Shown here piece by piece: positions 775-64,000 of a stretch of DNA of 64,000 nucleotides. The notes under the pieces were generated by a model, which was given only the letters and a program-made list of their open reading frames with translations, searched no databases and was not told the DNA's origin. A program made the position numbers and the translations under genes. This DNA comes from Xiphias gladius (Eukaryota; Chordata; Actinopteri; Istiophoriformes; Xiphiidae): positions 15,579,001-15,643,000 of the forward strand of contig NC_053406.1 of NCBI RefSeq assembly GCF_016859285.1, read 5' to 3'. Positions within the stretch are counted from its first letter, which is position 1; each line of letters starts with the position of its first letter.

Positions 775-3700
775 CTAGGCAACTGCAGCTGCATCTGACC
801 TACCAGTGGGCTCTCCTATAGGAAGCCCAGCCCCACAGACCCAGCCCTTCAGCTGTAGCTCCACCACCTTCAGCAGCTGGAACAGAGGAGAGAGCTCCAG
901 CAGCTTGGTCCACTCCTCTTCTGAGGAATAAAAGCAACATGGTTGGATAAAGTCACCAAATGTCACACACTCTAACTATGTGTTATTTTACATCACGATG
1001 TTACCTGGAATTCTGGGGATAGAGATTTGTGTAGTCTGAGCAGACTCTTTCATTGGCTGGCTCTCTGTTAGGAAATCAAGATAAAAATGACTCATTGTCA
1101 TTCAGGGAATAGTTTGACATTTTGGGAAATATTTTTATTCATCTTCTTGCTTAGAGTTTAATAAGGAAATCTACCCTCAAATCTGTCTATTTGGTATGAA
1201 GCTACAGCCATCAGCCGCTTATTTTATCTTCACACAAAGACTCTAGAGCTCACAGATTAACTCGTTGTATCTCTTTCATTTACTCCATAGATAGAAAACA
1301 ACAAGTTGCAGAGCTTTAGATGTTCTGTTTTCAGTGGATTTTTCTACCTTTGGACAGAGGCTAGCTTATTTCCACTGTTTCCACTCTTTGTGTTAAGCCA
1401 ACAAGCCGTAGCTTCGTATATCATGGACAGCTAGAGTGGTATCTATTTTCTCATTTAACTCTCAGCAAGAAAGAGAAAAACCATATTTTCCAAAGTTATT
1501 TCTTTAGAGGTATGTGTTGCTGTACAGCTAGAATTATGAGCACTTAAATTCCCTCTGTGTGTATGTATGGATGCGATGTGTCTTTGTGTGTAGTGTTGGT
1601 GCTGAGCTGTCCTGCAGACTAGTGTCCTGGAACTGAGCTAAATTGACAGGCTCCCTTAAAGACTGGGCAGGGATCCCTTTAGAAAAACAAATTGCTAGAA
1701 ACCTTGTGAACATCACAAGCCAGAGATCAAGCCGATTCATTTGAAAAACGTCAAAGTATCTCCTTAAGCTGCTATTAGGCTTTGTTTTGTAAAGTTAGTT
1801 CTCTAAAGACCCAAGACACATTATTTTGAGGTAATGAACTTTACTTCAGAGGGCTAGTTTTGACAGACACACGAACCATTTATGTTTTCTCATTTTATAA
1901 CTTATCCTAGTGGTTTCTGTACCTGCCATATACTTTTATTTATACATCTATGTTTTGGCATAAGCAACATTATTTTAAACACTTGTCAGAATTTTATAAT
2001 CATGTCATATTTCACTGATTTCTTACCTACGGTGGCCCTGGGGGTCAGAACACAATAACATTTCACAGAACACAACATGTCATGAAACACAACATTTCAA
2101 AAAACACGACATGTTGTGTTTTGTGATATGTTGTCTTTTGTGAAATTTCTTCTTTTATGAAAAATTGTGTTTTGTGAAATGTTGCTGTGTTTTGACCCCC
2201 AGGGTCACGGTACCTCCTTCTCTTCCATCGCTAATCTCCAGAGACATTAAAGAAATGCAACGTAGAGAAACAGAAAAACACCCTGCAATTATAACGAATT
2301 ACATTTTTTTACTCCAGGACACATCAGCAAGGTGGATGTGTACTTCGTACTGCTTTATCCTGCTGCATTTTGACAATCAACCTACTTCACAACATTTCAA
2401 GGCAGTCTGTATACACACACTTATTCCACAATACAAACATGTTATCACAAAGCTTGAGCGATTTAAAAAGCGTATACCTTTCACCACAGGCACAGAGACT
2501 GTCCAGACTCTAGAGCCTATCTCCAACCCATATGCCCGCTTTGTTGACAAACAAAACCAAACTTAACGAACAAGCCTGACAATATTCTATATTCTAATTA
2601 ATGTCAACTAATCATATGAAAAGGCCAAAACCAACAACAAATTGATCCTACTAACAAGTATAAATTGTTCGGTCAAAGCCTGATATAGTGTAGTTAATTT
2701 TTCTGTGCCAAAGAGCTCCAATGTTTTTCATAAACTCTTGAAAAAACACAAATATGCCTCAGTGTTGCACTGGGTGACATGTCCCTTCATTACAAAGAAC
2801 GCGTGATCTGTAGTTTATTTTGAGTCAAATTTAAGTCTTTTGAAGAAATTAGGGGGCTTGGTTTCAGTCTTTTCATGGGATTCATTGACAACCAGAAAAA
2901 TATAGAATAACACCAGTCTCATCCTTTGACCACAAGACCGGAATGTCTGGAAAATTGTCTGGTATTGATGCAGTACCTGAGATGTGCTGATTGCAGATGT
3001 TGGGGGAGATTATGGCAGCCTGTTTGTCCTCTAGGAGCTGGTTCAGTCTCTCTAGCAGAGGCAGAGCCTTCTGTTGAAGCAAACCCATGACCTTCACAGT
3101 CGGTCTCTGCCCACAGGACTGGGCCAGACCATATTCCTTGTACCAAAAGTTCCCACACAGTAATGCCTGGACAATCAAGAAGAGAAAAATTGCTCAAAAT
3201 AAAACTGGGACAAACAGAGATAACCAAAACAAATATTTTGATAGCCCTCTATAGTAATTATGTAATTAAGCACCATTTGCTTTGACTGTTCAGCTAAGCC
3301 TTTAAACAAACCTGATGGCAACACGGTTGATGATGACAGACAAACAAAAAATATCCATCTTCTCCCCTGTGTCATATATTTATTTATACTCAGTGTCATT
3401 TATTGAGTGTGTTTGTTCGTGGTTTGACCTGGGCAGTGTCGGCGCAGAGCTGCGAAAGGTGTCTGACAAAGTGCAGCGCAATAAGAGCAGCCTCCAGCTC
3501 TGTCTGTCTGGAACAACACTGCTCCCACAACTCTTTCTGTCTCAGCTCCCTGTCCTGGAGGACAAACAAACACAGGCTAGTGCAAAAAAAGCATAAAATC
3601 TTGTTTACATTTTGGCAACAATGTTATAGTCTGCATCTCAGCACAGAGCTGACATCAAAGTTCAAATACTAGACTTTCCAAAGATCCCTATTGTATCACG

Positions 3701-6700
3701 AGTCATATACATCTGGAATACGTGTTCTGCGAGGGAAACAAACACCTGACATAACTGTGTCTATTAAAAATTAAGCTACAGGGCCAATAATAAACCACAA
3801 AGCAATTATTCTGACCATAGCATGCAGGGCTTTAGCCCAGTCTCCTCCCTGTGTTGTCCATTTCTCTTGGTCTTGTTGCAGCTGCTCCATGCAGACATCC
3901 GCCTTATCAAGGCCGGACAAGAGCTCTGAGTACCAAACACTCTGCTGATCCCACTCCTCCTCATCACCTATACACATAGACGGAGATGCACAAAGACATG
4001 CTGCCAGCCCTAATACAATATTGAGCATTGAAATTATGCTGATTATTATAAAACTGAAGGGTGCGATATGAGAAGCTAGCATAAAGCGTCTCTCTTTTGG
4101 ATAGTAATGAATATAATCACAGTGCAGGTCATAACTAGGACTATAATTTCCTTCATGCTCTTCATTCTGCCAGCTTGCCGGGCAATTTACCCAATGTGAG
4201 TATATGGAATACATGTGGAGGCAGGATCAGAGCCAAGTGAGAGTGCTGAGCTGCCCTCCTCTGGGCCTCGGTCTGCGATGAATCCTGCAGCTCCACGGCA
4301 GCTTCCCTCAGCTGTCCCCCGGACCACTGGACCTGCTGTTGAGTACACACTTACACTTGGAACACGAAATGTGGAAACACATCCACACACAAATACTCGA
4401 TTCAAGGAACAAAGGTATGGGAAACACACACCCATACACAGTTATACTCTGACTTTGCAGTTTGCATGAACTCTTAGTTGTTTACAAAAAAACCTAACCA
4501 CCAACTTTATTACTTGCAGTGCATGGCAGGATATTAAAAGCCTCCCTTGGATTATTTTCAAATGCTTTTTTCCCCCACATTTACATATCCGCTTACTCAT
4601 TTCCACATGCTCAAAAGCCTCAACTCCTTTGAAATCTCCTCCTACACTCAGGGGCTATGCTATGTAAGATATTTACAACCAAAACAGTAAACTCTCCCTG
4701 CTGACCTGAGAAGAGTTAACTTCTGTGATTCTAAGGAGAGAATGGAAAAGAGCTGAGTCCAGATCAGAGAGAATATCTTCTTCCAGCTGCCTCTGATTCT
4801 GCCAGTAAGTGTTTCGCACACATACCTCTCTCTGGAGTGCCTCTACCTGGTATACAATGGCAACAACAAAAGGAGGTTAACCAGATTAACCAAATTCCAT
4901 CTCACTAAATTCAGTGAGCTGCAAAATGAAAAACTGAAGGTTAAACACATATAAAATGGAATAGCTTTCATCAAGTTCACAAAATTCCCTCCAGTGGAAT
5001 TCATTAGGCTTTAAAATACAAAAAAAACTGGTAGAGAGTCGAATCACTTTCATTTTCCGTGGTCACATTAAAGATACCTTGAGTGAGAGCATTTATGGAA
5101 ATATCTCTCTAAATCACTTCCCCACCTGTCCACTGTCAGTTTGAACCGCCACCATTAGCCAGTAGGAGGCTGTAACAGGCAGAACGTTTTTTCTGGACAC
5201 ATCCAGCCTGGCTCCAACCACTGGGGCCAACAGCCCTGTCACTGGGTCAACCGTCTGAGATCCATAACGGATTGCCACTAGGCCTGTGAAGTGAAACAGC
5301 ATAGACACAGAACAGGATACAACTTGTTTTATTCTGTATTGTTTAATAAAACATAAAAGTGGAGTTGATAAACTTGGTCAGGGGAAGCTTGATTTTCACA
5401 CTACCTTTTCCATCGGGGTCCTCCATGGTCCCTGCCAAAGGTATCGTAATCCCAGAGACAAGGTCAGTCTGACATCCCAGCACAGGTACACTAAGACCAG
5501 ATCCCATGGGGTCAGGGTACTCCATCCCCAGCAGAGCTGGTACACATATATCAGAGCCTGAGAGAGGTATTTCTCCTGGTTTGAACGACACAGAAGAAGT
5601 CAGAGGCTTAGAGTGGAGCAAACAAGATATCATAAGGTGCTCGATTATTTATTTCCCAAAGTATTCCCAAACGTTTTTATGTGTAATACATTTCTAGCGA
5701 GTTAGAGAGGAGCAGAATTAGGACAACAAGACATTTTGACCTGTGTAGAAAACTGATATGTTTTACATTCACTTTAGTTTAGTGACAGAATAAGTTAAAA
5801 CTTTTTATTGGTGTTTCTTTTGGCTAAAATCAAACAATCCCTATACAAAGCTCCCTGATATCTACTATGTGGTTAACATTCATACTTATATAATTTAATT
5901 CCATTTAGGGCTTATATTAAACAGACAATATGATGTACAGTGCGTAATGGCAATGGGAATTTGTGGCCTGAGTTAGAGGTTTTATTGTCTGCATTATTTT
6001 GAGCTCATAGCATCCATGCTGAGAACACTGAAGATACAGCAGTTCTGTTATCCCATATCATAAAACATGGGTATGGGCTATATGAGTTAGTTCCTGTCTT
6101 AATATAATGTGGTTATGTGGGGCAAACAGGTCATATGCTTAGTGTCTGTGGAAGTTGGCTGTTGTGACATATAAAGGTCCTGTGAAAATTCTTTGAGGTA
6201 TGAAATGTCATCCTCCTTAGGTTCATGAATCCTTTCCAAAGCCAATTTCAAATAAATTTAAAAAAAGCAAAAAAAAACAAAACACAAAACTCTTTTGTTT
6301 ATACTAGCACTGGGCATTTAAGGACAACACTGTGACATCCAGAAGGAGCCAAAAAGTTAGTCAAAGATTGTGCGTTTTCTTTTGTGCAGCATTAAAAAAA
6401 CATGAAGTTAACTTACTTTCAAAAGCAGCAATGGCCTTAATTCTATGAATTTCTCCTCACATATCACAATAAAAGCTGCAAAGAAGAAACACATAAGCAA
6501 AACGAAGTAATAGGCCAATGCTGCATATTTTTCTACACAGCAACAAGCACATTTATGGCAGAGTGATGACAAGTAGAGATTTAAAAAAAAGTAGATGAAA
6601 AGATGATGTTTTTTTTCCATTTAGGATGATATTTTCTCACACACTAGCAAAAGTTTCAGCAAATGTAGAAAATAGATAACTCCAAAGTACAGGAAAAAGA

Positions 6701-9700
6701 GAACAGCTCTTTTGCACCAACACAGGGAAGAGGAGGGGGGAGGGGACCATATCAGCACAGAGAGGCAGTGGTCCACAAAGACACTCATCATATCCATTCA
6801 TCTTCTCACTGGCACTTCTTTACCCAGAGTCCCTCCATCTTGCTGGAGACCCACGGCCCAGTCCAGCAGGATCTCCAACCTGGTCTGTAACTGGAGCTGA
6901 CAGTGCAGGCTCCTTCCCCAGGCATGCTGGAGCTCCTCGGCTGCAGCGAGAAGATGATCTGGCCGACCAATCCCTCTCTCAGTGCCTGGATGTGGCTGCA
7001 GATGCTGCAAAGTCGGATCTGAAACCCACTCCTCAGTTAGTGGCTTCAAGAGATCCAGTGCTTTGAACATCCCTGCCAGAACCTGATTGAGAAAATTTTG
7101 CTGGGTTAATTTGTATCACTGGATCGCATTTTTTTTTATTAGAAGACATTATGAGACTACCCTCAACCCTCAATGAGACTACCAGGTAGTCTCTTTTTTT
7201 TTTTTTTTTCGTCAAGAGAGACCTGACTAAAATGGCAGCACAAAACCGTTGTTATAGGAATAAATACAAAAATCATAAGCAGGGCTAGAAAATTGTCACA
7301 TGCCAAAGTATAAACAATATCCAGTTAAAGTGCATAAACAGGTAGGATTTCCAAAACTAAATGGACATAAAAACAATTAATTTATTTTCGAGATCATTTA
7401 AAAATGACTTGAATTCACAAACAGTAATCAACTCTGATAATTCTAATAAATTCTAATAAATCTAATAAAGTCCTTCTTTAAATTATTTCAGGAGAAAGGG
7501 GAAGAGTATTTAAAAGCTTTTTGCTCTCAGGTAACTCGGAAAACCAACGTCTGTAAAATATAGTGAGAACATATGACATAATGGTTTCCCTTTCTACACA
7601 AACATTAAATATTCACTTATAAGGTGGAACCAGCCCAAGAAGAGATTTGTCTCATTTTATCACACATCATACTTTGGAAATATCCTACTTATTTTCTAAA
7701 TGCAATTAAATGAGTTCGTCTTAGTGTAATCAAGCACCTTGCTGTCTAGTAATGCTTGGTATCCTCCTGCATTAGGCACCAGCTGTCCCGCCCGCATGCT
7801 GGCCCCTCTTACTCTCAACATCCGCCCACTGAGAGGTTCGATGAAGGACTCGGCCAGCAGGGCTCCACCTACTGGCAGCACAGCTCCTACACAAGCATGT
7901 AGAACAAGGTTAAGTTATTGAAGGTATAGTAACCCTCACACTGGCTGTACTGGGGTCTCACCAGCAGCACCGACCTGTTACTGGATCTAAGTGGACCCCA
8001 ACTGTGAGCACAACGTTCCCCGTCCTGGGGTCAAGCGTGGGATAACCAATCTGTATGGGCTGAGGCAGCCGTGAGATGGGGCAGACATGCACCCCTCCCA
8101 GCGGGTAGACTAGTCCGGTCTGGGGGTGGATGGTCACAGCCAGAATGGGTACCGGGACCCCCGTGTCTGGGTCTGCCATGGGAAATCCCAGCTGCAGCCT
8201 CTGACCAGGTCTGAGGCCTCTGAGCTGAGTGCTGGTTAGAGGCTGGTCTGAGTGGCAGGAGGTTGGGTAAGGAATGAAAGGAAGAAGGGGACTGTCCCAC
8301 TTCCTGTTGTCACCTGGGATAAAGAATGGCACACAATAGTTTTTTAAAGGGGAGGTCAACCCTTGGAAATTTTATTTCAAGAGCTATATTACTCTTACAC
8401 TGTCATATGTAATCAACCTAAGTGATCTTTATTGAATGCTATTAGTTATACTGTATAACACAGTGTGGCACCTTTATTTTGCTATACTGCTGACTTGTCC
8501 ACTTTGAGTCTATCCACTTTGATATGTCATACTTGTCTTCTACAGTAACTGTAGTAACGGTTAGCAGCACAATTCAGCTAATTTCTCCTTGGTACTTGGA
8601 TTCCTTAATCTCTAATATAGCCAGCGATTGCTAATGCTGCTTATTAGCTAGCCTGTTGACAAATCTATTGCCTCCATGTTTTTTCTTCTAGTTTTCTGAG
8701 CAGAAAACAAGTCAAGTGAGCAAGTGTCCCAAAAAAAAAGTTTTAACCTATTATGATATTAGGGCTGGAAAATAAACCTAATGTATCAATTTACCAACAC
8801 TCTGAAATCTCTTTTTATTTGCTTTCATCACAGATTTCAACAAATAAATAGCTCATGTACAATTATCCTGAAAAAAAGCTACGACAAGAAGTGACATTTA
8901 ACCAGATGTTTAACCACACAATCAGCCCAACATCCAGTCCTGAGGTCCACATTCTTAAACTTTTCGCATCATAATGAATCCAGAAAAACATATAAACCAG
9001 CGTGAGAAAGGAAATAAGTCATAAAATGAGTAGCTATTAAAAAAAATATTGTGGAAAAAATTGACAGCATAGCAAGATATACATTTCAGATCAAATCATC
9101 CATTCCTGTTATATTATGTATACCTGGTTATCCACAGGTATCACTGCAAATGCAAAGCCAACGATCAATAGCGGCCTTTTAGCAGTGTAGTGTGTTTAGT
9201 GATGTTTTTTTCTTTCTTTCCTGATGAAATGCTTTTTCCTCACTCTTATTTTAACACTGCCATCTTCCACAGCACACAAACACCCTTCATGTTACCTGTA
9301 CATGAGTCAGTCGTGAACACTAAAGTAGAGCTTGCAGGATCATAGGCCACATTGCCAACAATGGGCATAACCCGGCCAGTCTGTGGGTGGAGGAAGAAAT
9401 CAGGTGGCACTGCCGTGATGTGGCAGCTGCTCAGCAGCATATGGGTGTGAGCATTGGGCCTTATGAGGCCTGTGACTGAATCACAATGAAGTGCCCGGCA
9501 GACACGCAGGGACCCGTCAGGACCTGCAGTGAGGCAGAGGGAGAGATCAATGTGAGCAGTTATCAAACTGTAGATGACTATGATGATGATTTTAAAGCTG
9601 TTTTGAAATACAGTACAATCATATGCTGGGCAGGCAGCATGTCATGCTGATTTTTTTTTTCTTGACTAGAGCACTGTAGTGGCGAAGTATGAATCAAGTA

Positions 9701-12700
9701 GCAAATCATGTCTGTTTATCACTTATCACATTAGTGGGATAGCTTTATCAGAGTGCTTATATTATATTTTATCAGATAATTGTTATTGAAGGGGGAAAGG
9801 GTCTTACCATGAATGCCAAAAGTTAAAAAAAATACATGACAAGTGTAATTTCAATGTATTTAATATTGTCAGTACATCATTTAATATATTTTCAAGAATT
9901 TAAATGGTTTTATTGTATCACAACTTTAATGTTTGTTTCTTTTTACTTAGGCCATCTTGTCACTGCAGTGCATACTTTTAGCAATAGATGGTGTTATTTG
10001 TTTTCAGATTCATGGACAGCATTTCGGAATATTTAAGTCAGGGTTGATGGATTCACCAAAGATGTCGTCCTTGGTTAGCACAGTTCCAGTGTCAGGGCAG
10101 AGCAGCTTGGCCCCTGTACCCTCACCCAGCAACTCCCAAGCCCCCTGACGCTGACACTCTCCTGATACCAGCTCTCCCATCTCACCGACTACAGATGTCA
10201 GCCTCTGGATCAAACTGAGGATGGGAAACAGCGGGTTGAAGATGTCAGGGGATTTTCTCCGTTGTACTTGTTGCCTTTGACACTTTGCAAAGGATAAACG
10301 GAAGCTTTACCTTTGCTGGTATTGTTCACAGAATGGCTGGTTGTGGTTATAAACGTTGCAAAGTAATCTGGTGCACTCTCTGAGATGAGTTGTAAAGACA
10401 CTGTGGACCCTCTGCTGGGCCTTTTTCTCTTGCCTCAGTACCTGGAGAAGAACAGCAAAACAGTCATTCTTGATCTAACGTACTAACATAGTTAATTAAT
10501 CATCTGAGTCACTTTTCAGGCAAAAATGCTAAACATTCTCCTATTCCAGATTATCAAATGTAAGGATTTGCTGCTTTTCTTTGTCTTGCCTTTGTCTTCG
10601 TCTGTCTGAACACGTGAAAGTAAAGTGAATATCTTTGAGTTCTCTTCGGCTTTAAGAAATGGTGATGGGCATTTTTCACTATTAATGATTAATCGATTAA
10701 TACTTGCAGAGTACTGACAATGAATATAATCATTAGTTGCAGCCCAAGACAGATTGTTCTCTCTTTAAAATCTGTCTAGACCACATAATACACCTTATCT
10801 TTAACTTTCACCGTCCTTGTCACTGGAATAGATTTAGGTTGAGTTTTAGAATTTAGAATGGGATCGAGGGTTTTTCTAATTTTTAGAAAGATGTCCAGAT
10901 GGGAATGTAATGTAAACCTGTAGCTGACTGTCGAGCAGAGTCCTCAGCTGTGAAGCCAGAGTCTTTCGTCGCACCACCTCCTTCTCCACCTCCCTCCTCA
11001 TCCTCTCATAGCCCTCCCCATCCTCTCCTCAGTGATCAGGCGTGGTTGGAGTAGCCGCAGTTTCCCGAGCACTCCCTGGTATAGCTCCTTTACCTGGATA
11101 CACACAATACACATATATCAAAACTAAATGTCTGCCACACAAACATCTTAAGATGGTAGTAATCAGATCTCCCATCTCAACCCAGCCCCGGGCAGATAGC
11201 ACACACACACCTAACTAACACCGATGAGACATTCACGTTTGTGTGCCATCTCCCCTTACATCCGTGTCACTAAAAACAACTTCTGTCTCCGACACTGCAG
11301 CCAACAATTTGATGACAGAAACAGGAAGGAGGCAGGCAAGAGAGGGGTGCGACTAAAGACACTAGAATTCCAGTGCGACGTCTTATCTGTTTCAATAGAC
11401 TTGACCTTTATGAATAGGATATACTGTATACAAAGATGGGACAGTAGCAGGTGACAGAAAAAACGAAGCGAAAACAAGAAGTAAGGATGAATCGGATTGG
11501 ATCAATGCATGTAAAATTGGGATATGTGAAGTAGACTAACAAGCAGACTAGCAAGCATTGCAAAACCAAATTCAGATGAACATATGCAGATATACAGTAC
11601 ATGGACTCAGATAAAAAGTGCAAATCAGTTGTTGTGATGTATGAGGGATGTTTTCCTTCTCTTGGCCTGGTGTAAACAAAATATTATATAAATTGTTGCC
11701 TGAGGTCTTCTACTGCATTAAAATATTCATAAATTATTCATAAAACTATAATCTTGGCCTATGTATACACATTGATTTTGTTTTGAAACAGTCCAAAGGA
11801 GAACACTTTCTGGTGTTTCAGGATAGCGAAACCTCCGAGAAAAAGGTTGCCTCAGAGTGTGCCTGAAGGAAAAGAGGAAGTACATGTATGTGTCATTCCC
11901 TTAAAATAGCGAAGGTTATTTTGCATTGAAAAGCTACAGACCTCAGTGGTGAGCTGTCCCAGGCGTTGGGTGACAGACAGGCTCTGTTTGAGCAGGAGAT
12001 TGTAGAAGGTGTTGCTGCTGAATGCCTCAAGGTCCACCTGGTGTTCATAATCCCAGAACTCCCCCAAGGTGTCAGCACAGACTGGCCGTCAAGAGAATGA
12101 ACCACAAAGAGACAGAAAGAGAAAGATCGCATGAATATGAAAACACATTTAATAAAGTCTCTGACCTCTCTCTTAAGGAGAACTTTGAAGAGCGAGCATA
12201 ATGTGCTGTGTCAGGAGGACCAATGAGCTTAAAATGTGTCGCCCACCTATTTGCATGTTTTGGTACAACAGCTTTGATGTTCCGTTTCGGTGTGGATTTG
12301 ATTGATGTATATTCGCATTAGAAGCTTTAAAAAATAATTTCACGTTTCACAAGCAAATAGCTTCCACTTGTTTCTCCCTGGGCTTCGGAAGTTCTTTTTT
12401 TGCAAAAAGCCTATATGTTTGTGTTTGAAGAACATGCCTCTTTTCAACACTATTATGCAAAAGAAATATAAATAACTCTTTGAAGCTAGGTTAAATGCTT
12501 TTTTATTGCGTGACATTTTGATAATAAAAATGAACAATCTCAAGATATTGTGGTTTGATGTGATTTCCCTAGTTCCATGACATTTGGACTGTTGTCATTT
12601 TTACTGTTGGTCACAGCACGTGATATGAGGTCTATGACAAGAGCCTTTTCAACAGTAATTGGTTGGGTGGTAGCAACGCCCAAGGGTCACTGTCAGCGTT

Positions 12701-15700
12701 ACATAAGAAGACACAAGGATCTGCAATGACCAACAAAGTCTCAGTGTGTTTCTGTGTGTATGCGTCTGTGGTTGTTTGTGTGTCATGTGTGCACACTGCA
12801 GGTGCATCAGTTGACATGGTGCAGATTATGTGAATATAAGTTATGTAACAATTGGCCTTTAGGCTTTGAATTTGTGCGTGGCATCTGTGGTTACAGCTAC
12901 AATATTGCACCTGCTTGAATGGAGTCTTGTGTCATTCTGGCTTGTTGGTTTCGGTGAGTCTTCCTAAGCGAGATCACCCTCGAACCTTTTGACGAGTAGT
13001 CGTCCATGTGGTAGGCCAACTGCGACAAGCGATACCTCGCTCTGATTGGCTTCTTCTCTGGCCATCCATATTCACAAAACAGGATCTACATGCGGGATAG
13101 ATTTATGAATGTGTTGTATTTAACGTACAGCGGCATGTGTTTGTGTTATGTACACTAACCAGCACGGTAACACATAAACAGAGGATGACCACAGCTCCAA
13201 ATAGCAATCCTCCAGTCACCAACCAATCTGGCCGAATTAACAAGTTGCGTCTTCTACTGATCCCCATCCTGGTCACATGACGAGGAATGGTGGGGAAGAA
13301 GGGGCCGGGCTCATAACACTGGGCCCCTGCAGGCATCACCCGCACATACTGAGTAAGAACAAAATGAAGGGTAAGTTTGATTGAAACATTGATTGATACT
13401 TATCATTTTATCTCTGTATAAATAGCAGAATGGGATCACATTACAATTACAAAAAGGAAACAGTAGAAAAGGCTTTCCAAAGGGGTCAGTAATTATATGA
13501 AACAATAACGCACACATACAGGTTCTTAATGGCACAAAAACATACAAAGTGTGTTTCAAGCTGGGTACGCTTCAAGAGCTTTTCTGTATTCAACAGCTCC
13601 CCTCCTTTCCTCTTCATATCACAGCAAAATTACAAGGAGCAGGAAGTGGGAGAGTGCTTAAGAATATTTTAACTATGCAGGTTTTGCCAATTCCCATTTA
13701 TGTAAGAATTAACTTGATGTAGACTTCAGTCAAGGCATTTGTCAGATTTTGTTTTAAAGTTGACTTTAAAAAATTTGGATGGACTCTAGCAAGAATAAAA
13801 AATGTTCAAACCATTACACTGTGTGAGAACTTAAAGGTGCCCTGTGCAATCTTTGGCCACTAGTGGTGCTGCAGAGCGATAATTTGATTAGCAGGTCCCG
13901 CTGTTATTTGTATCAAGTGCTCTACCAGCAAATGCATGAGGACACCCTTGCAAACCAAGGGTGAAGTAGTGACATGATGTCACATTTCTGTCATTTTGCA
14001 CTTTTATCTCAATCTGTCAGAAAAAACAAAAAAACAAAACCCAAAGATCTGAAAATGTGGGTCGAAATATTTTTTTAAAAATGGCTTTGCAGATGTTGAA
14101 AGAGGTAAGAAATGCATTTGACATGTTTGCAATTTGGTGAGGGATACTGAATGTAAAGAACTACATTTATTTAAAATGAAAACTTCACAGACGACCTTCA
14201 ATGCTTATAATATTTTAAATTTAGTTACCAAGTGTTTGTGCTGATGGCTGCTCAGTGTAAAAACATACACACCAGGCTGGCTAAAGACCACTGAAAAGAA
14301 GCTGGGAGGAGTCCAAGACAGAGTCAGCTCCTCTTTCAGCTGTCTGAACGCACCCCAGTCAAAGTCACTGTTTGTGTTGTACAGACTGTCACTGAAAAAC
14401 AAGAGGTAAGGATTGAGGGCCAGTGTAAAGCAAGTCACAGCACAGATTCATAGCAGGAAAATGGACATGAAAAAGTTTTCGACAGCTTCTGACTTACAGA
14501 TCATACTGAGGATAGTGACGCGTGTCGACAGTGAACAGTATAACATCACCCAAATGGAGACATGTTGTTGGGTTCAGAACTCCAGTTACACTTCTCACTT
14601 CCTCCTTCATATCAATCTTGTTTCCCCCCGTCCTGCTGGAGTCAATTTCTCTCCCGCCATGACTTATATTTCCGACTTTGGTGACCTCCCACAGAAAGTC
14701 AGAATCTTCCTCTAAAAATCAACAGGACAGCACCTTCATTACTGCAGAAAATAGTTTTTGTTTAAATGACGAGAAAATATTGTTTTGTTGAGACAAACCA
14801 GCTGAGCTATGGGAGTCCCATGGCGTGGTGACAGGAAACAGTTGCTGAAGCTCCTTTGGCAGGCCGCTGAGGACGCCAAGGAAGCCTGCGTCTGCAATCA
14901 GGCAGGGAAAAGAGAGACAGAGTTTAGAGAAAGGAAGACATGCAGGACAATCGAGTGAAGGACAGAAAAGCCATTGTGTGTGTTTGTGCATGTGTGAATG
15001 TGTGTCTCTCCACCTGTTGTCAGAACAATGTAGACAGGACGCGGGGAGTAGAGATGACTGTTGCACTGCAGAGTCCCTTGGGAGTCCCACTGTTTAAAAA
15101 CCGTCTCCAGCACGCTGCCTGAGACGACCGCCACCTGCACACACACACAATAACAGTTTTTACCATTTATAGGCCACTGCAACACAACAGACACTTGTCT
15201 TAAGCTTTCACTGCCGGCACAATAAAGGCAACATTGTGTAAAGGTTTTATATGCATTGTCTGACCGGGTAGCATAGCTCTGACTATTCGTTATGTTTATT
15301 CTAAGACAGTTTCAATGGAAATACTGTATGGATATGGGTATGGGGTAACATGAATTAGAAGAAAACCTCTCAGATACAGTGGGTATTCATTTTATTGACC
15401 CAAATTACTGGAATGTGTGCTTTCCTTTCAGTAGCTTCTCCTTGAGTTTTTGAATAGAATATGTTGTGTTATGTGTGTGTTGATGAAAATATGCAGCTGC
15501 CTTCGCTCACCTTGCTGTCGTAGCTCCACATCAGTTCCACATCTCCACCTGAAAGGCACCGGAGGTGCAGCTCAGCAGCCGGCCTGCTCCTGCACAGGCC
15601 TCCACACACAGCTCTTCCAGGAGGCTCTCTGCAAAGACACAGACCCAGCTCTCCATCATAACCCCGATAGTCCTCTGCAGATTGACACACCTGCAGGAAA

Positions 15701-18173
15701 GCAACCAGTGCAAAGCTAGTATCAGCAAAAGGCTTTATTAGTCAACTCTAATCCTTTTGAAACCAAGCAAATGTTAGTTTCTTGTTTTCTCTGTTTGGAT
15801 CAGGTTTGGCTGGGTCATTTTTTTAAATTTTATTTAACAACCATATAAAAACTGGCAGCATTCTTAATCTATGTTCAGTTTGAGTGTGTAACTAGGTGAA
15901 AGGTTACTCGTACCAAAGACTACTATGGAGGACAGTTAGAAAAATAAACACTGCAAGGGGAGAGCAATTGACGGCCTCGCTAATCGACAGTCACAGGAAG
16001 CAGTTTATGGTTAAATATTAAGTGGAATTAAAACAACCCTGTACTAGATAAACCATTGTCAGGTTCATGGAGGAAAAGGGTAGAAACATCTAGGTTGCAC
16101 TCATTAGCCTTATCTGTGACTGTAGAGTGTGTTTTGTCCATGTCTTCTGGAAACAGATCACAGTTTACAACTTAGCTTGTGTCTCTCAAGCATCATTCAA
16201 ACAGATCTTCAGGGCTAGTTTCTCGCCAAGTGTCGATTTGTGAAAGATATGCCAATTACCTTTGCTCTACTTTTAGTGTGTACATTTGAGTTTGTTATGA
16301 TTGCACAAAGGCTGACCTGCTGCCTACAATGAAGGGACCACTGATGTGTGTCCAGACAGTCGCCATACTGTGTACGTGCTTTTCCATCTCTGCAGACATC
16401 GTACAGTTTGTGTACACACACATCTCCGTTCTTGGCAGTTTGGTAGCCGATGGTACAGTGGCACCGCCCATCACTGGTCTGCAGGGAAGGCAGCGGGGAT
16501 CAGACATTCAGACATTGTGTTGGGTATTGATACATACAGTTTATGTTGCGGTCAGTTTGTTACCAAATATGCTAATTTGGTTATTCATTCATTCACTAAC
16601 AAATTCTATCAAACCACATCTGTTTTTCCTTCCTTCCTTCCTTTCTTCCTTCCTTCCTTATCTCACCTATTTTCCTTTCTTTATTTCTTCCAATCTTTCA
16701 TTCATTTATTCATTTATTTTATATTAGTTCTCACACCAACACCCATGCAAGAGTCATATAAAAAAAAATCTCATTCTCCTTATTATGAGCTGACGAGTGT
16801 ACGGCTAAACGCTCATGCCAGCTGTAGCAGACTAGGAAACAAGACCCTGGTGCAAGTGAACTTGATCTACAGCTCTTTCAGCTTGAAGCTACAGATTGTG
16901 CAGTCTAAAGTTTCTGACAGACAGTGAGGAAGCTCTCTTGACAATATTAGTTTGCTCACCGTATCCCAGGACTCAAGAGTGACACAAAAAAAAAATCATA
17001 GGCTTAAAAAATTTGAGTTCCTCTTTGGGTTCATAGAATAAAGGAGGAGCTCACAGGACAAAGAAGGAACTGGGTGACTGGTTCTGTAGGAGGTGGTGCT
17101 GGTGTCGATATAGAAATGAGGGCTACACAGTCACATAAACACACCAGAGGGGACATACTTGCTGCAGAAATTATTAAATTAATCCTGCTATCATGTGAAA
17201 ACACATTGTCACCTGAAAACTCTGTCCCTCCCCTGGGCAAATGCAGGTGTCCTGGCCAGAGAGAGGCTGCTGAGCCACGGGACCACAGAGCAGAAAGGCA
17301 GACAAGCCTGGTCGTGGACAGTAGTGGTGAGGAGGACACTTTAGACAGCTGTCTAAGGACAGAGCACCAGCAGTCGGCCCATAGGTTCCCTTCGGACAGG
17401 GCACTGGAGTGAAGCTCCCCTCTGGGCAGTAGAAACCTAACAGAAACAATAATATGTTCTTACATGCAGTTTTATATATTTTTTTATTTATGCACACATT
17501 TCCAATTGTAATTTTTCTGTGTATTTACACTATACCAATCACCGTTACAGGGATGGGGCTGCATCTTGCTGGTTGTCTTAACACACATACACATCCCCTG
17601 GCTCCCTTTTCTGTCAAGCTCTACTGTCACTGTGTCTCTAAAGTCCCTGGGAGACAAACTGGCTTACAGATATTATTTACACTTTTTCTCAAATGTACTG
17701 GGAACACAATTTTCAAAAATTTGTTACAAATTTTCTATATGCAATTTACGATTATATTATACTACGCAGCAAAACACTTTAATTGTCCTGCAAAAGGCTG
17801 TCATTCACTCAAACTATTTACAGCAAAAAGTCAGTGGCTGATGGAAAAAAAAGACCTCACGTATTTGCTTGTGCCACCTCTCCAAAAGTTAAACGTACAC
17901 CATAATGGAAGCAGGGGGATATGTGCATAACAAAGCAGATAATGTAATGTAAATCTTTTGATATGGATCAAATATCAGTTAATGTCTCTTTGTGATATTT
18001 TTTTTAAAAATGACAAAAAACAGAGTATGCAGTCAGGACGTCCTACCTGGCTTGCAGGGCAGCTTCTCCTGGTTATTTTGACTGAAGTTGTTTCCATTTG
18101 CAGTTGTTAGCAGCACAGAAGCCAACAGCCACCACACACATCGGACTCTTTTGCATCTGCATGTACTTTGCAT
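775..18173 (-). CDS. Unrecognised single-pass membrane protein with D-P-x-T-G repeat tail (26 coding exons)
   Basis: I do not recognise this gene by name. Coding exons in transcript order: 18047-18173, 17213-17436, 16317-16478, 15511-15690, 15014-15134, 14799-14891, 14498-14711, 14229-14391, 13160-13348, 12911-13085, 11942-12081, 10918-11093, 10311-10441, 10057-10214, 9296-9523, 7975-8313, 7738-7886, 6824-7082, 5405-5575, 5126-5283, 4706-4846, 4191-4332, 3816-3967, 3429-3554, 2977-3166, 775-920. Every junction is GT-AG and phases agree throughout, apart from one missing base in exon 12. The predicted product is about 1,484 residues: signal peptide, Cys-rich ectodomain, one membrane helix near residues 470-495, then a very long cytoplasmic tail. 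The start at 18173 is the first ATG and opens a clear signal peptide. It runs head to head with the apolipoprotein gene 2.4 kb away. The layout suggests a receptor or scaffold, but no function can be assigned. Confidence 0.8.
1104..1502. mobile_element. Palindromic MITE-like repeat, copy 1
   Basis: The left end reads TTTGGGAAATA and contains a CTTGCTTAGAGTTTA segment. The right end carries the inverse (TTTAACTCTCAGCAAGAAAG, then ATATTTTCCAAAG). The interior contains the phrases GAAGCTACAGCCATCAGCC and GGACAGAGGCTAGC. The same order of segments occurs again at about 51541-52027. This is a non-autonomous, palindromic repeat family that I know from percomorph genomes. It sits in the last intron of the unrecognised membrane-protein gene. 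Confidence 0.7.
2029..2213. repeat. 185-bp perfect-stem-like inverted repeat (MITE)
   Basis: The left arm begins CGGTGGCCCTGGGGGTCAGA and the right arm ends in the inverse, TTTTGACCCCCAGGGTCACG. Between them, runs of AACACAACATTTCA-type units on the left are mirrored by TGTGTTTTGTGAAAT units on the right, so almost the whole element can fold into one hairpin. No coding capacity. It fits a short MITE or a relic of one inside the last intron of the membrane-protein gene. Confidence 0.7.
4191..4335 (-). other. NAGNAG tandem acceptor at exon 22
   Basis: The intron before exon 22 ends in the bases CAGCAG, so splicing may use either AG. The upstream choice starts the exon at 4335 and adds one Gln; the downstream choice starts it at 4332 with Val. 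Both keep the phase. I used 4332 in the gene model because several other exons of this gene also begin with GT-V codons. Confidence 0.5.
5126..7082 (-). other. Exons 18-20: helical insert followed by further repeats
   Basis: Exon 18 (6824-7082, residues 991-1076) has no D-P-x-T-G motif. It is Leu/Gln/Glu-rich (AAAEELQHAWGR, QLQLQTRLEILLDW) and probably alpha-helical. Exon 19 (5405-5575, phase 1-1) returns to repeats with YPDPMGSGLSVPVLG, TDLVSGITIPLAG and EDPDGKG. Exon 20 (5126-5283) carries the best single copy, VDPVTGLLAPVVG, then VLPVTASYWLMVAV. So a helical spacer splits the repeat domain. The 1.25-kb intron between exons 18 and 19 is AT-rich. A possible 59-bp exon inside it (6417-6475) breaks the reading phase and was left out. 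Confidence 0.65.
7738..10214 (-). repeat. Exons 14-17: D-P-x-T-G protein repeats in the cytoplasmic tail
   Basis: Residues of about 699-990 hold a run of degenerate repeats with the core D/H-P-x-T-G followed by two to four hydrophobic residues and Pro: CPDTGTVL, CDSVTGLIRP, HPQTGRVMPIVG, ADPDTGVPVPI, HPQTGLVYPLGG, LDPRTGNVVL, LDPVTG-AVLPVGG, EPLSGRMLRV. Spacing is about 20-45 residues. Exons 15 (228 bp) and 16 (339 bp) are both phase 1-1, so they could have been duplicated or skipped without shifting the frame. Further copies lie in exons 19 and 20. I remember no named domain with this pattern; the periodic turn plus beta-strand look suggests a repeat fold, which is inference. Confidence 0.7.
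10490..10750 (+). repeat. Approximately 250-bp interspersed repeat, copy A
   Basis: Contains the order GATTTGCTGCTTTTCTTTGT, then a GAATATCTTTG segment, then GATGGGCATTTTTCACTA, then ATTAATCGATTAAT and CATTAGTTGCAGCCC. The same order appears at 53870-54150 and 59110-59420 (plus), and inverted at 42730-43060 and 57650-57920. A partial copy is at 63530-63690. I know this family as abundant in percomorphs but cannot give its library name. This copy lies in the intron between exons 12 and 13 of the membrane-protein gene. Confidence 0.7.
10918..11093 (-). other. Exon 12 with apparent 1-bp deletion and premature stop
   Basis: This exon is 176 bp although both neighbours require a phase 0-0 exon, that is a multiple of three. 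Read from its acceptor it encodes VKELYQGVLGKLRLLQPRL..TEER, then meets TGA at 11000-10998 (codon 32). From the donor backwards, a second frame is open and of the same helical character (VEKEVVRRKTLASQL..LLDSQLQ). The two frames meet in the purine-rich stretch around 11015-11025, where one base appears to be missing. Translation as given would stop at about residue 627, removing the whole D-P-x-T-G region. The other 25 exons are intact, which favours a recent lesion, a polymorphism or an assembly error over an old pseudogene. Confidence 0.75.
13160..14891 (-). other. Exons 6-9: membrane-proximal beta-rich domain and membrane helix
   Basis: Exons 7 and 8 encode a stretch with CLHLGDVILFTVDTRHYPQYD, then FDWGAFRQL, then PGVYVFTLSSHQHKH, followed in exon 9 by the strand YVRVMPAG. 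The alternating hydrophobic strands and His-rich PGVYxFxxxxHxH segment resemble a cupredoxin-like beta-sandwich, but this is only a pattern impression. Exon 9 then encodes basic residues (SRRRNLLIRPD) and a hydrophobic segment WLVTGGLLFGAVVILCLCV (about residues 470-490) continuing into exon 10. With the N-terminal signal peptide this predicts a type I topology, with exons 10-26 in the cytoplasm. The cluster of arginines before rather than after the helix is unusual for type I topology, although exon 10 also supplies a basic stretch (PEKKPIRARYR). Confidence 0.65.
13830..13990 (+). repeat. Short interspersed repeat fragment
   Basis: Begins AAAGGTGCCCTGTGCAATCT and contains CCACTAGTGGTGCTGCAGAG, a phrase I associate with a common fish repeat. 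It lies in the intron between exons 8 and 9 of the membrane-protein gene. No coding potential. Confidence 0.4.
15014..18173 (-). other. Exons 1-5: signal peptide and Cys-rich ectodomain
   Basis: Exon 1 begins with a basic, Cys-rich n-region followed by a hydrophobic core (VWWLLASVLLTTANG), a typical cleavable signal peptide of about 30 residues. Exon 2 (residues 43-117) has paired cysteines in the pattern FYCPEGSFTPVPCPKGTYGP and CPPHHYCPRPG, with CICPGEGQ at its end. This spacing is what I know from GCC2/GCC3 (ephrin-receptor-like, TNFR-like) modules. Exon 3 continues with DGRCHCTIGYQ, and exon 4 carries CLCREPPGRAVCGGLC. These exons have phase-0 borders (2-3, 3-4, 4-5), so single exons correspond roughly to single modules. 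The module name is inferred from cysteine spacing; no domain search could be run. Confidence 0.7.
16620..16710 (+). repeat. TTCC/TTCA-rich simple repeat
   Basis: Imperfect TTCCTTCC units followed by TTCATTTATTCATTTATTT in an intron of the unrecognised membrane-protein gene. Confidence 0.8.
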
Positions 18174-22402: not shown

Positions 22403-22726
22403 GAAAAGTAAAGTTATACTTTCATAAAATATTAAAATTTCTCTGTTCTTTAGTTGCTGCCATAGTTAATATTTGTTTTTTTTACACATTGTTCAGGCTT
22501 AACAGTTCCTTCATTGCCAGTAAATGACTACTGAAAGCAGATGCAGTGAGTATAGACAGGAAAAGTTACCAGAATATTTGTTTGGTTTCAATACTCACCT
22601 GACTAGAACATTTGGTTATTACTGAAAAAATCCCAACATTATCAGATTTTATGAGGTATGAGGTGACGAGGCAAAGACAATTTGCCACTCAATCTGTCAG
22701 TCAAAGGAATGAGGTATTCCTCCCAC

Positions 22727-25598
22727 TCAATAAAACTTCTTCAGGACGAACCAGCCACCCAGAACCAGCAAGGCAGCAGCGGCCGAGCCAAACACCACCC
22801 CCACCACCAGGCCCGTCACGCTCACATCGTCCCTCTCTGATGCCATGTCATTACCTGATGCACGCAGGGGGAGATTAGTGGAGATTACTTTTGGAGTTGA
22901 CCAAATCTTCCAACATTAGGGTGTATTTTTGGATTTATGACATGATTAAAGCATACTCACTGTAGGCAGCTGCATAGGGCCTGTCTTTAGTGAGGGAAGA
23001 TAAGAGAGTCGCTGAAAAAGTTTATCATGATGATGTTGTTTGAAAATCACAGGAAAAAGTATAAAGGTATATATTTTTTAAATAGGTCAAACCTTCTCGA
23101 GCTGTGTAAAGAGGTCCAACTGAAACAGTGGCTGATTCTCTGCTTTCTACTCCGAAAGGAGTCAAGGATCTTTTTCTTCTGGTATTGCAGGCCTGAAAAA
23201 CAACAAACAGTTTGAACTATGTCATATAATGTAACACTATTGCTTTTCAATACAAATTTTAAGCTTAAGAATTAATATGTGATTTATTTGTTTTAGTGAT
23301 ACTTTCTTTTTTTTTTTTAAACCCAAAAAAAGACTAAAAGGAGGTGCCCTTATGGCCTAGGGGTTTAAGGTGCCAACTATGAACCACAACATCCCTGGTT
23401 TGAATCTGTCCAAAAGACTTTTGTTGCATTTGTTGACCATCTCTCTCCCTAGATTTCCTGTCATGTCCCTAATATCAGCTATCTAAACTACTGTTATGCC
23501 ACCTATTTTTGTGTGTATTGAGTCTTTTCTTGTGGCTTTGAATGTGACTTATTGTCTGCTCAACACTGTGGACAGAGAATTTTCTATTTCTATCAAATAT
23601 TTTTATTTCTATTTTCGTACATTTCCTAAAATACAGAAAGCAGGTAAGTTAAATGCATGGCGATAAATTGTATCAGTGGAATCTTTGCACCAGAAAAACT
23701 GCCATGGGGTACCTTTGAAAGTTGCTTTACTAAACTGTGTTTCCGTTACTTCCCCTGATGCCTTTAAAGTAAAAGCATTTGCTCTTGACTTCTCAACTTA
23801 CAGACAGCAGCTCTTGGCATTTGCTGGGCTCGCAGAGTCTCAGTATGCAGTGCAGATAGATGCTGGACTTTGCCTGGTCACGGTGCTGAACAAAGCGGAA
23901 GGCCTCAAAGTTGAACCGGGCAATCTTGGAAAGTCCATTGCTTGCCACAGACGTCCTTTGGTCCACTGAACATCTAGTCGAGACCAGAGTTATTTAGTAT
24001 ATACATTAAAAAGTCATGTGAAAGTCCCCCCCCCATGTATGAAGCAATGCTAAGGGCGTGTGCTTCCTTACCCAGTGAAGAAGTTGTGCTGCTCACTGTG
24101 CGACATGTTGTAAGGAGTGGGAGTACTAAAGCAGTGATCCAGCAGTACATGGAAACTGAAAACAGGAAAGTGGGCCAATGAGTTACTGTTTGCCACAGGG
24201 ATACACTGTGCTCACTTTTACTTCAATATTTGTTTTCTAATAAACAAATTTACTATGAGCATCTCTTCATCCAAATGGGCTTTACTTACTTCCCCGTGAG
24301 GTTAACAGCCTTGACCTCCACATAGACCCTGGTTCGTAGCTCAAGTCCTGTGGAAGGTACCACTAAAGGATAGCCATAGTGAGAGTCCTGGAGAAATAAG
24401 GCATAGAGTAAAATGAATCAAGAGAGATAGCTCTGAAGTGTATCTAAATCATTTGAATGCCAGCACCTGTACCTACATTAAAAATAGCCATTTTTAGTGT
24501 ATCAATGAAGGTTCCATTATTATCACTGGTCGCCACCGAGACTGAGGAGCTAAAAATTCATGGGAACGGATGCAAAAGAGAGAAAAAAAACTTTCAGATT
24601 TACTGTATGTACATGTCAGCTTCATGTGTTACCTCGGTTAAAACCCAAGAGGATAAATTTACAACTTGCCTAAATAATTGCAAAAAGTAAGGATTCCCAA
24701 TTACTCACGCCACAATCTCTGTGTTGTTGATCAGGTACTCCAGCGGGTAACGGCAGGAGAAATGATAGTAGAGGTCTGTGGAATAGCTGATCACCCCCTG
24801 GTCAGATCTGGGTGTGTCAATGTACCCTGTGATGATAACTGACTGGATACTTAGGAAGTTGCTGAAGGGACCTGTGGGATCCGGAGTCTCATCCACAATC
24901 TGAAAGAGACAGGAAAGCTCCTTATATACAGGCCAAATAATTCTACATAAAGGATTGTCCATCTAACATCCAGATATGTGTCATTTTTCTTCCTCATCTC
25001 TCAACATTATTCAGCATCTTCTACCAGAAACCTTCTGACCTGCAGAGACTGGCGACAGGGGTTATCCAGACTGTGGTTAACAGGAAGCTGGTAACGGATG
25101 ATCGGAGGGTCCGCACTAGTGTCGACAGAGCCCTGGCACTCTGTATTGTTGTGGTTCCCGTTCAGAGCCAGGTCCGTGGTGTTGAAGCCTGCCCACTGAG
25201 CTGTGCACAGGTTGATCTCCAGGGTGATCATTCTGGTGCCACAGTCAACTGTCAGGTCCGAGTTGTCTATGAAAGAGGGTGACAGAGAAACCGAGGAGAT
25301 TTAAATGATAGATCTGGTTTATGTTTTTTATTATTGTGAGATATTTTTTCCATTGGAAACATTAAGGGAAAATTAATATGATTATCTAGTTGCTGTGATG
25401 AAACGAGAAAAAGTCCATAACATTAGGCAGGCAAAAAACTCACCACAAATAGTACTCATATAAAACAAAATGATCTGACTCAGTGAAAGTTATAGTTAAC
25501 CTACCTGGGGTCCTCTCATACTCAGAGGAGCAGTTGTAGAGACACAGAGCAGGCTGCAGGAGCACAACCAGCAGAGGAAGACAAAGTGAGAGAGTCAT
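22727..25598 (-). CDS. zpld1-like: ZPLD1-like zona pellucida domain protein (10 coding exons)
   Basis: Exons: 25505-25598, 25040-25266, 24709-24899, 24477-24549, 24290-24387, 24072-24155, 23802-23973, 23093-23192, 22961-23011, 22727-22854; all GT-AG with consistent phase, 405 residues (human ZPLD1 is about 415). The order is signal peptide (MTLSLCLPLLVVLLQPALC), ZP domain, polybasic cleavage site, membrane helix and a very short tail. ZPLD1-typical phrases include DLALNGNHNNTEC, GYIDTP, FSCRYPLEYLINNT, NNGTF and ARFNFEAFRFVQH, with the ZP-C cysteines HCxLRLCxPSKC. RRKR in exon 8 fits the consensus furin site that releases ZP proteins for polymerisation. The C-terminus has the helix VTGLVVGVVFGSAAAALLVLG and ends KKFY. 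Human ZPLD1 is linked to extracellular matrices such as the inner-ear cupula; here the role is inferred. Which paralogue this is cannot be decided. Confidence 0.88.
23336..23600 (+). mobile_element. tRNA-like SINE in a zpld1-like intron
   Basis: The 5' part reads TTATGGCCTAGGGGTTTAAG (box A-like) and, about 40 bases later, CTGGTTTGAATC (box B-like), followed by the TGTTGCATTTGTTGACC...CTCTCTCCC...TTTCCTGTCA body that I know from fish SINEs. It lies in the intron between exons 7 and 8 and is antisense to the host gene. No intact 3' tail is obvious. Confidence 0.6.
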
Positions 25599-31680: not shown

Positions 31681-34600
31681 ATGGATTTTATGAAGCTGTT
31701 TGGCACTGTTATCGCCGTTTTGTTCCACCCTGGATCCGTTTCTAAAATAAATGGTAAGAATACTTCGGATACACGAAAACACCCCCTTTGGACTCTGCTC
31801 AGACAGTGCAGTTTTGTGTTATTTATTTCCAGGGTAAGACTCGTTTGTTGTTGTTGTTGTTTTTTTTTTTTTGCATGCAGCGCTCACTGTGCGTTTGTTG
31901 TACAGCGAATCTAATTTTCATGTTTTCTCTGGTGTGTTTGCGCTTCAGATCACTGTTTTGAAGTCAGGAGGTTTTAATAACAACTTGAAAGCTAAAAGTA
32001 CTACTATTAGACTAGTATTAAAGCAACTATACAGCTAATAGTAATGATAACAACAGCATCCATGGTCCTAATAACTACGCAACTATGCAACAGACGCCCA
32101 TCTCGCTAAACTAGCCCAACTTTACATTTATCTGTTTGGGAAAAAAATGGTAAGGAAATAAGCAATACTTCACCGAGAAAAGAGTTGTTAGATGAGATGA
32201 GATTGTTTTGTTGTGTGGGGATTTCATGGTTTTAACCCAGGGGTTCCCAGGGGACATCTACATGGGGTCCTGAGACGAACGCAGATTATTACAGATGCTT
32301 AAATAAGAATAAACAAAACTCTGCAACACGAAATTGTTCATTATTTGCAGTTTTATCTAATCTTTGTTTTGTTTTTTTCTGGAAAAGGAAAACAACTTCT
32401 CTCACATCACAATCTCACATGTTTTAAACTCCCAGATATGCAACCTGTTATGATATTGTGAGGGGTCACAGGTAGGCATTATTAAGGGGATTCACAAGTT
32501 TAAAAAAGATCACCTATAGGTGATCTGCCAGTCCTGCCTTTAGACAATCAAGATTGACTTATGGTGAAAAGCCATAATTAATATACTTTAGTCAATAATT
32601 AACCTACTCAATGTGCCTCCTTAGCGAACCACTGTATTTCAGACATGTTCAGATTCACATATTTAAAATGTTTCCTTGACAGTCTGTCACAATGCACTAC
32701 AACATCAAAACTGTTTTGACTGACACAAGAACAATGTAGGCAAAAAAAATCTTTTTTAAGCCCTTTAACAATATAGTGCTTTTACTACAACTTCAATACC
32801 ATGTGATTTACTCTACCCTAGTTGCAGGAAAATTTGGTAAGAACTTTGGCAAAGCATTGCAACCCAAAAATTTGTCTCTGATACTATAGGTTGCTTATAA
32901 TCTTCCTGTCATGTGGGTGCAACAGGAAGTCTTCATAAACCAAAAACCCTGCACTAATCATCTTGTTATCTCTCCGATGCTGACTGTGGTGTCCAGGCCA
33001 AAGGATCTGTCGGTGTGGGACAGAGCGGCCATGCTACAAGGTGTCCTACATTCAGGACAGCAGCCGGAGGCTGACCTTTGAGGATGCCCGACAGGCCTGC
33101 AGGTTGGATGGAGGCGAGCTGCTCAGCATTGAAACAGAAAGCGAGCAGCGACTGATAGAGAGGTTCATACAACAGCTGCAGACTGGAGACGGAGACTTCT
33201 GGATCGGGCTCCGACGTAGCCCACAGCGCTACAGGGCAGGGACCCCAAACCCAGGTTGCCCCTCGCAGTACTATTGGCTGGATGGAAGCAAGGCCAAGTT
33301 CAGGTCTTTATTCTTATAACATTTCACTCTTTATGTATGAATGTTTCGGCTGCATCAATGAAAATGGTTCGGGGGACCTCGAGGGACGCAGGACAGTAAA
33401 ACAGGAAATGTCAGTGGAAAAACCATGTGGCCAGTTGTGATTTATAAAGGATTATTGGATTAAATGATTCTTGTGTGGGAGTGATGGAATGTGTACAGTC
33501 CTTTGCAAGAATGTGGAAATGAGAAATTCAAATATAGAGTAAAACTGTGCTTGTGATAATGTAAATTGTCCGATTTTTGCAATACAAAATGTGATAAAAG
33601 TCTAAACGTGTGCCTCTTATTTGCTGCAGGAACTGGCACTGGGATGAGCCATCATGTGGTAGTGAAATGTGTGTGGTTCTGTACCACCAGCCGTCCGCAC
33701 CTCCTGACGAAGAAGGTCATTTCCTGTTCCAGTGGAATGATGACAACTGCAACTCCAAGAACAACTTTGTCTGCAAATACCCAGAAGGTGAGCCAGTTGA
33801 TCACAGACACTGGGCCGTTGTACCTGGCTGTGCAGCACTGGGAATTATTTGGCATGCTTTGTTTTATTTGGACATTGAATCCACAAGCTCTGAAGCTGAC
33901 CACTATTAAAATGTGGCCACTGCTGTTTACAGCTAGCACAAAACACTTAATGTACAATTTTAATGTTGGTTGCCTGGATTACTGTAATGCTCTGCTCTCT
34001 GGTGACCTAAAAAGATATACCTGCCTGTGTGTAAGGTATACTTGATACCTCAAATATTAGTTTTTAACTTAACTTACTGTTTTGTTTTGTTTTTAATTTA
34101 CTTTATTTTATATGTATCTCCTTATAGTTCTTTGAGGGATTTGACAACTGTGAAGCAACCCTAATCTATGTGCCCAGTTAATTAACTATATCTTTTACTT
34201 TAAATAGTCTAATCATCCTATTCGTGGCTCATATTATTTAGTTGATTAATTTTACAGCCTTTTCTGTTGGCTCTCCCTGTTGTGTATCTTTCCTTTTCAC
34301 TTTCTATTTCTGATGTAAAACGGTTTTTGAGCATTCCTCTATGTATTTAATATTTTTTTTTATCATCTGAGTGAAGCAGAATTAATTACATAATTTTAAA
34401 AAATCTGGCTGAGTGATGTGAATTTATGTACTTCTTTTCTCTGTCTTTTGCAGAAAAGGTCCCAGTAATAACTGATGAAGGAAAGACGGCACATGCAGGT
34501 ACAACATACATTTGACTAACCTGCACATACTGTCCATGTATGCATGATGTTTCCATTAGACTGTACTGTAGATAACAAGTGACAGCAGATTTGTTTATAC

Positions 34601-39980: not shown

Positions 39981-64000
<24,020 letters not shown>

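Follow-up and report, generated by a model that had tools for sequence, protein, structure and literature searches.

Eph receptors are characterized by an ephrin-binding domain, FN3 repeats, a kinase domain and a SAM domain. Chlamydomonas MST1, whose structure has been solved, carries a domain annotated as ephrin receptor-like, and we know of no DPxTG tail in it; among intracellular repeats a DPxTG-like turn occurs inside those of the plakins. The Cys-rich domains of Mst1 build a filament (PMC11015965), a plakin repeat consists of an 11-residue hairpin and two helices and binds intermediate filaments (PMC4782060), and chignolin is an artificial hairpin of the sequence GYDPETGTWG (PMC4616061).

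The gene described here lies in a window of 64,000 nucleotides of the Xiphias gladius genome (C7:15579001-15643000), and coordinates without the prefix C7 are positions in this window. Its predicted product shares with Ephrin_rec_like and GCC proteins one Cys-rich module of the same type at the N terminus, which, unlike one piece of a giant sister gene (the paralogue), scores below the PF07699 cut-off. When the pieces of the window gene were scanned with Pfam, this sub-threshold module was the sole match apart from chance ones, and none of the Eph ligand-binding, FN3, kinase and SAM domains appeared. With plakin repeat proteins such as envoplakin and desmoplakin (PMC4782060), the product would share short intracellular β-hairpin repeats (the hairpin being putative here) and a possible cytolinker role; in contrast, its units measure about 16 residues in the clear blocks against 38 in plakins, lack the helix pair, have no Pfam plakin match and are joined to a receptor-like ectodomain. 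The likeness to MST1 consists in a marginal profile match (E 0.019) that does not establish homology. Chignolin likewise holds D-P-x-T-G inside a small β-turn peptide (PMC4616061), but it is an artificial peptide of ten residues and the comparison concerns the turn only.

The gene is read on the minus strand from 18173 leftwards as a chain of exons in compatible phases. Twenty-seven exons were modelled within 775-18173, where an earlier note on this DNA had counted 26. Most of the chain was recovered at two of three intron penalties, together with a few surplus exons, by a home-made exon finder whose codon and splice tables, like those of the coding test, were entered by hand; boundaries and phases were subsequently inspected singly, and exons 12 and 19 were then revised. 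With exon 12 excluded, the coding score is positive in the called phase for all 26 exons, and the called phase is the best-scoring one in 25 of these (the exception being 5405-5575), although the phases had partly been picked for openness beforehand. The surplus exons provisionally dropped are 17822-17837 and 17543-17646 (both proposed at two of the three penalties), 13984-14013, 6417-6475, 11818-11862, 506-593, a start at 19477-19501/18359-18429, and a 9-base exon outside the window; either the phase between exons 1 and 2 fits in their absence or they interrupt the chain. The weak acceptor of exon 19 at 5606 was replaced by that at 5575, and a model of tiny exons arising from a low intron penalty was discarded. 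An intron of the gene contains a foldback element (2028-2212) with 85-base arms that are 80% complementary and 15 bases apart, perhaps a small inverted-repeat transposon.

The extracellular part is encoded by the first exons of the chain. Exon 1 (18047-18173) provides a signal-peptide-like N terminus beginning MQSTCRCKRVRCVWWLLASVLLTTANG..., the signal peptide being judged by eye, and exon 2 (17213-17436) a Cys-rich module of the Ephrin_rec_like type, which is matched by modules of the paralogue and reaches 19 bits (E 0.0012) against a gathering score of 23.1. Exons 3-6 (14799-16478, comprising 16317-16478, 15511-15690, 15014-15134 and 14799-14891) encode a Cys-rich linker that aligns to the paralogue. 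The ectodomain contains 27 Cys in 472 residues, compared with 29 in the 1250 residues of the tail. The earlier description of an ephrin-receptor-like Cys-rich ectodomain is thus borne out by one module that resembles Ephrin_rec_like, but the score of that module stays below the Pfam cut-off. Exons 7-8 (14229-14711, comprising 14498-14711 and 14229-14391) encode a membrane-proximal domain conserved in the paralogue, with the motifs HYPxY..LYNxN..FDxGAFRxL..PGxYVF. By eye this domain seems cupredoxin-like, and no cupredoxin appeared among its PDB and Pfam matches. It had been called His-rich, a label that does not describe a conserved feature, the stretch concerned (SSHQHKH) not being kept in the paralogue.

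A single membrane helix, as previously claimed, is well supported. It is encoded by exon 9 (13160-13348), where the hydropathy peaks at 3.15 in the window starting at residue 476 and a hydrophobic stretch of the paralogue is aligned; the only other hydropathy window above 1.6 (1.61) lies at residue 930 within the repeats. Both flanks of the helix being basic, the type I orientation is deduced from the Cys-rich module and from the start, which resembles a signal peptide. Behind the helix, exons 10-11 (11942-13085, comprising 12911-13085 and 11942-12081) encode a basic juxtamembrane stretch and the first tail segment, DLEAFSSNTFYNLL....

The gene had also been taken as complete down to 775, which does not hold: the TAG near 776 is intronic, exon 27 (804-920; EEWTKLLELSPLFQLL...) ending at 804 with the good donor ACTG/GTAGGT, and the C-terminal domain lies beyond the window edge. 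Exon 26 (1005-1064; 60 bases, phase 1 to 1) is the least certain exon and falls inside the C-terminal alignment with the paralogue, and an optional exon 28 (467-535; 69 bases, phase 1 to 1) is uncertain. As the paralogue has a C-terminal domain, the search was carried past 775. Five exons outside the window (C7:15575493-15578457) encode such a domain, which by itself matches that of the paralogue at 7e-10, with an alignment score of 144 against a shuffle maximum of 65. A tblastn search with the C terminus of the paralogue missed this domain, a false negative, and it was gene modelling and protein comparison that showed it. The gene model suggests that the gene continues outside the window to about C7:15575493, its 3' end being approximate, with a predicted product of at least about 1,750 residues. 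In Pfam, the C-terminal domain was assigned to no family for the window gene and gave a sub-threshold TPR_NAA35 match for the paralogue (15.4 bits, cut-off 27), and its PDB profile found no match up to E 5. The string H-C-L-S-H of the window gene stands at the C-terminal place equivalent to Q-S-M-A-H in the paralogue. The next gene leftward carries TPR repeats and is presumably similar to TTC12.

Several other features were observed in the window. An apolipoprotein A/E-like gene extends from 20758 to about 21974 on the plus strand (Pfam Apolipoprotein E, 2e-10, 41 bits against a cut-off of 90), and a Zona pellucida domain protein whose ZP-N and ZP-C matches exceed the cut-off is encoded at about 22700-25598 on the minus strand. 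The plus strand also carries a C-type lectin gene with a Lectin_C match (about 33000-34030), which we take to be layilin-like, and a kinase gene with a Pkinase match on its first part (about 40035-62069), presumably a member of the SIK family. A short stretch on the minus strand (56285-56326) is, we assume, a remnant of a Tc1-type transposase.

When the ectodomain was searched against the assembly (690.8 Mb in 1298 contigs for this and the other own-assembly search), 47 matches at E up to 10 were obtained among 50 candidates scored, a number beyond which other genes with such Cys modules may escape. Eleven of the 47 belong to the window gene, and the remaining 36 lie in C7:15377688-15418821 on the plus strand, in a paralogue that is predicted to be a giant. 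In the 80 kb holding it, 76 tight C.xGxxC motifs occur on its strand and none on the other. Ephrin_rec_like reaches 45.2 bits in one predicted piece of the paralogue, above the cut-off, and stays below it in a hand-joined second piece (17.1 bits) and in the 3' part (12.2 bits). This 3' part, whose end lies about 151 kb from that of the window gene, is ordered as linker, membrane-proximal domain, helix, first tail segment, SPLF segment and C-terminal domain. An Ig-like gene (C7:15433467-15433988), which we take to be related to a sodium channel beta subunit, adjoins the paralogue.

The two genes are colinear on both sides of the repeats. Their membrane-proximal domains are 40% identical, and BLASTP aligned the window protein with the paralogue over residues 39-612 (3e-30, 25% identity) and 1433-1692 (3e-11, 20% identity), the E-values referring to a single comparison of two predicted proteins. 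The ectodomain end, helix, first tail segment, SPLF segment and C-terminal domain are common to both genes and follow in the same order. Between the two matches, the 818 residues of the window protein have no likeness beyond chance to the 86 of the paralogue (474 of 2000 shuffles scored as high). The DPxTG block was found in the window gene and not in the paralogue, in whose 80 kb [DHN]P.[TS]G yielded nothing but one NPGSG. With EP.[TS]G, the same 80 kb yielded a single EPQTG, in the paralogue tail (C7:15421606) near the place expected for the repeat block. The loose motif occurs once in the paralogue tail and 13 times in that of the window gene; as 1018 of 5000 shuffles reach the count of the paralogue, its EPQTG need not be a relic. 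The paralogue being colinear yet devoid of the block, the DPxTG block is therefore an internal gain or loss between the pair. Because this colinearity holds on both sides of the repeats, the window locus is probably one gene, and the earlier idea of a single receptor-like membrane protein with a long repeat tail gains support from the comparison of the two predicted gene models.

The part of the tail absent from the paralogue, a stretch of about 820 residues flanked by segments shared with the sister, contains three DPxTG regions, of which two are clear (about 95 residues each) and one is degenerate. Exons 13-14 (10057-10441, comprising 10311-10441 and 10057-10214) encode a second tail segment, probably helical, with the first repeat unit CPDTG, and exon 15 (9296-9523) encodes the degenerate block (DSVTG, HPQTG...). 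The main block, DPDTG, HPQTG, DPRTG, DPVTG and EPLSG, is encoded by exons 16-17 (7738-8313, comprising 7975-8313 and 7738-7886) and is present in a single copy in the assembly. It is separated by a probably helical spacer in exon 18 (6824-7082) from the second clear block in exons 19-20 (5126-5575, comprising 5405-5575 and 5126-5283), which aligns with exons 16-17 over about 96 residues. Exons 21-25 (2977-4846, comprising 4706-4846, 4191-4332, 3816-3967, 3429-3554 and 2977-3166) encode a proline- and glycine-poor, probably helical region.

These repeats are real and go beyond chance repetition. The strict motif [DH]P.TG occurs six times in the tail, compared with a mean of 0.022 and a maximum of 2 in 5000 shuffles; for a looser motif the count is 13 (mean 0.42, maximum 4 in 5000 shuffles), and for the longer motif with a following P..G it is five (shuffle maximum 1), all of these motifs having been chosen after the sequence had been viewed. 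Independently of any motif, the two clear blocks align with a score of 98, where 2000 shuffles reached at most 63 and the non-repeat C-terminal stretch scored 30. The long D/H-P-x-T-G repeat tail named in the earlier note is thereby confirmed. Repetition is less clear in the first region, whose two halves align with a score of 52 that 1 of 2000 shuffles also reached (maximum 63). The spacing of the units is irregular (28, 31, 27, 51, 15, 32, 15, 20, 157 and 32 residues), with 15, 32, 15, 20 and 32 within the two clear blocks and 28, 31 and 27 in the degenerate one.

Searches of Pfam, NCBIfam, PDB, GTDB and IMG/VR yielded no relative of the repeats. In Pfam, neither repeat piece nor any of eight single units was assigned to a family at E up to 10, in searches whose HMMER filters discard most weak matches. 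In the PDB, phmmer with the first 531 tail residues behind exon 12 gave no match up to E 10 and with the membrane-proximal domain one chance match (E 1.1), and the best E-values in profile searches were 0.16 for the repeat unit and 0.45 for the membrane-proximal domain. One sub-threshold match was obtained in NCBIfam (E 0.061), and exon 16 found no confirmed relative in GTDB genomes and IMG/VR. In the assembly itself, a query of the 849 residues that follow exon 12 gave 15 matches with E up to 10, every one of them an exon of this gene. AlphaFold2, run on exon 16 alone with no alignment, gave a mean pLDDT of 38.8 and a pTM of 0.26, which support no fold. In the literature covered, which is thin on subscription papers and no proof of absence, no description of the gene, its parts or the repeat was recognised. 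The expectation that the protein would fall outside well-described families therefore agrees with these libraries, none of which gave a match above cut-off. By undescribed we mean absent from Pfam, NCBIfam, PDB, GTDB and IMG/VR, and uncharacterised UniProt entries are likely to exist. The tail may represent a new kind of receptor tail.

Tentatively, and somewhat short of an even chance, we regard the product as a type I single-pass receptor-like protein whose intracellular DPxTG hairpin modules serve as a docking scaffold or cytoskeletal linker. The ectodomain would recognise an extracellular partner. Each D-P-x-T-G may form a tight β-turn as in chignolin, each unit of about 16 residues a small hairpin and each block a compact β module, an idea based on the chignolin D-P-x-T-G turn and on the roughly 16-residue spacing seen in the clear blocks. 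Such modules, spaced by probably helical spacers, could act as the docking scaffold or cytoskeletal linker, and the giant sister, lacking the block, would have the membrane-proximal and C-terminal functions in common with the window protein but not the docking surface. A more specific proposal, possible but doubtful, is that the DPxTG blocks are an undescribed intracellular repeat module, a compact array of chignolin-type hairpins. The receptor family, itself undescribed, would then have two branches, a giant one with dozens of extracellular Cys modules and a shorter one that gained, or alone retained, the module as a docking scaffold.

The tail may, on the other hand, no longer be made. In exon 12 (10918-11094), every one of the three reading frames contains a stop. 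The first part of the exon, VKELYQGVLGKLRLLQ, about half of it, aligns with the paralogue, and the remainder stays open and runs in phase into exon 13; the simplest reading is thus a one-base frame break inside the exon, and the allele as assembled would therefore stop after the first tail segment. A break that is real and fixed would mark a decaying gene, and a stop in each frame of this exon and the failure to find a second gene copy in the assembly are in line with this. We consider it unlikely, given that the other 26 exons tested are open and score positively in the called phase, 25 of them scoring best there, and that the 15 exons behind the break within the window are among these; in addition, assemblies frequently contain one-base errors in G-rich runs.

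If the tail is made, its DPxTG blocks could still be a spacer or low-constraint filler with no binding role, as the colinear paralogue does without the entire block. This appears distinctly unlikely, because the order of the units is kept between two blocks over about 96 residues, which argues for constraint. A binding role of another kind, that of a plakin-like cytolinker attached to intermediate filaments, would fit the β-hairpin unit on which plakin repeats are likewise built (PMC4782060). We judge it improbable, since the repeat pieces and all eight single units have no Pfam match at E up to 10, and since the units are consecutive, whereas each 38-residue plakin repeat includes a pair of helices.

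The pair might instead be ciliary or surface-filament proteins, the sister a long Cys-rich fibre and the window protein its shorter, membrane-bound partner. Consistent with this are the giant array of Cys modules in the sister, the weak PDB matches of a profile of the shared ectodomain (CFAP43, E 0.0072; Mst1, E 0.019) and the filament formed by Mst1 Cys-rich domains (PMC11015965). Both matches are, however, marginal and come from a profile of two rows, and Cys-rich modules readily match one another, making this explanation decidedly improbable. Very improbable indeed is a split into two genes, one for the ectodomain and membrane helix and one for a separate cytoplasmic repeat protein: the frame break follows directly behind the paralogue-aligned part (residue 612) and the exon finder divided the chain at exon 12 whichever of the three intron penalties was used, but in the paralogue a single predicted chain holds the membrane part and the C-terminal domain, and in the window gene these two flank the repeats in the same order.

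We retain, as the tentative reading, a receptor-like membrane protein with a docking or linker tail of DPxTG modules. Should other fish carry the gene intact, it would define a family of receptor-like proteins, one giant and one short, and a repeat module absent from the libraries searched. The sister, colinear and without the module, would offer a natural with/without pair for testing the function of the repeats, and, if the hairpin array is true, this would be a natural protein that uses a tight hairpin turn as its repeating unit.
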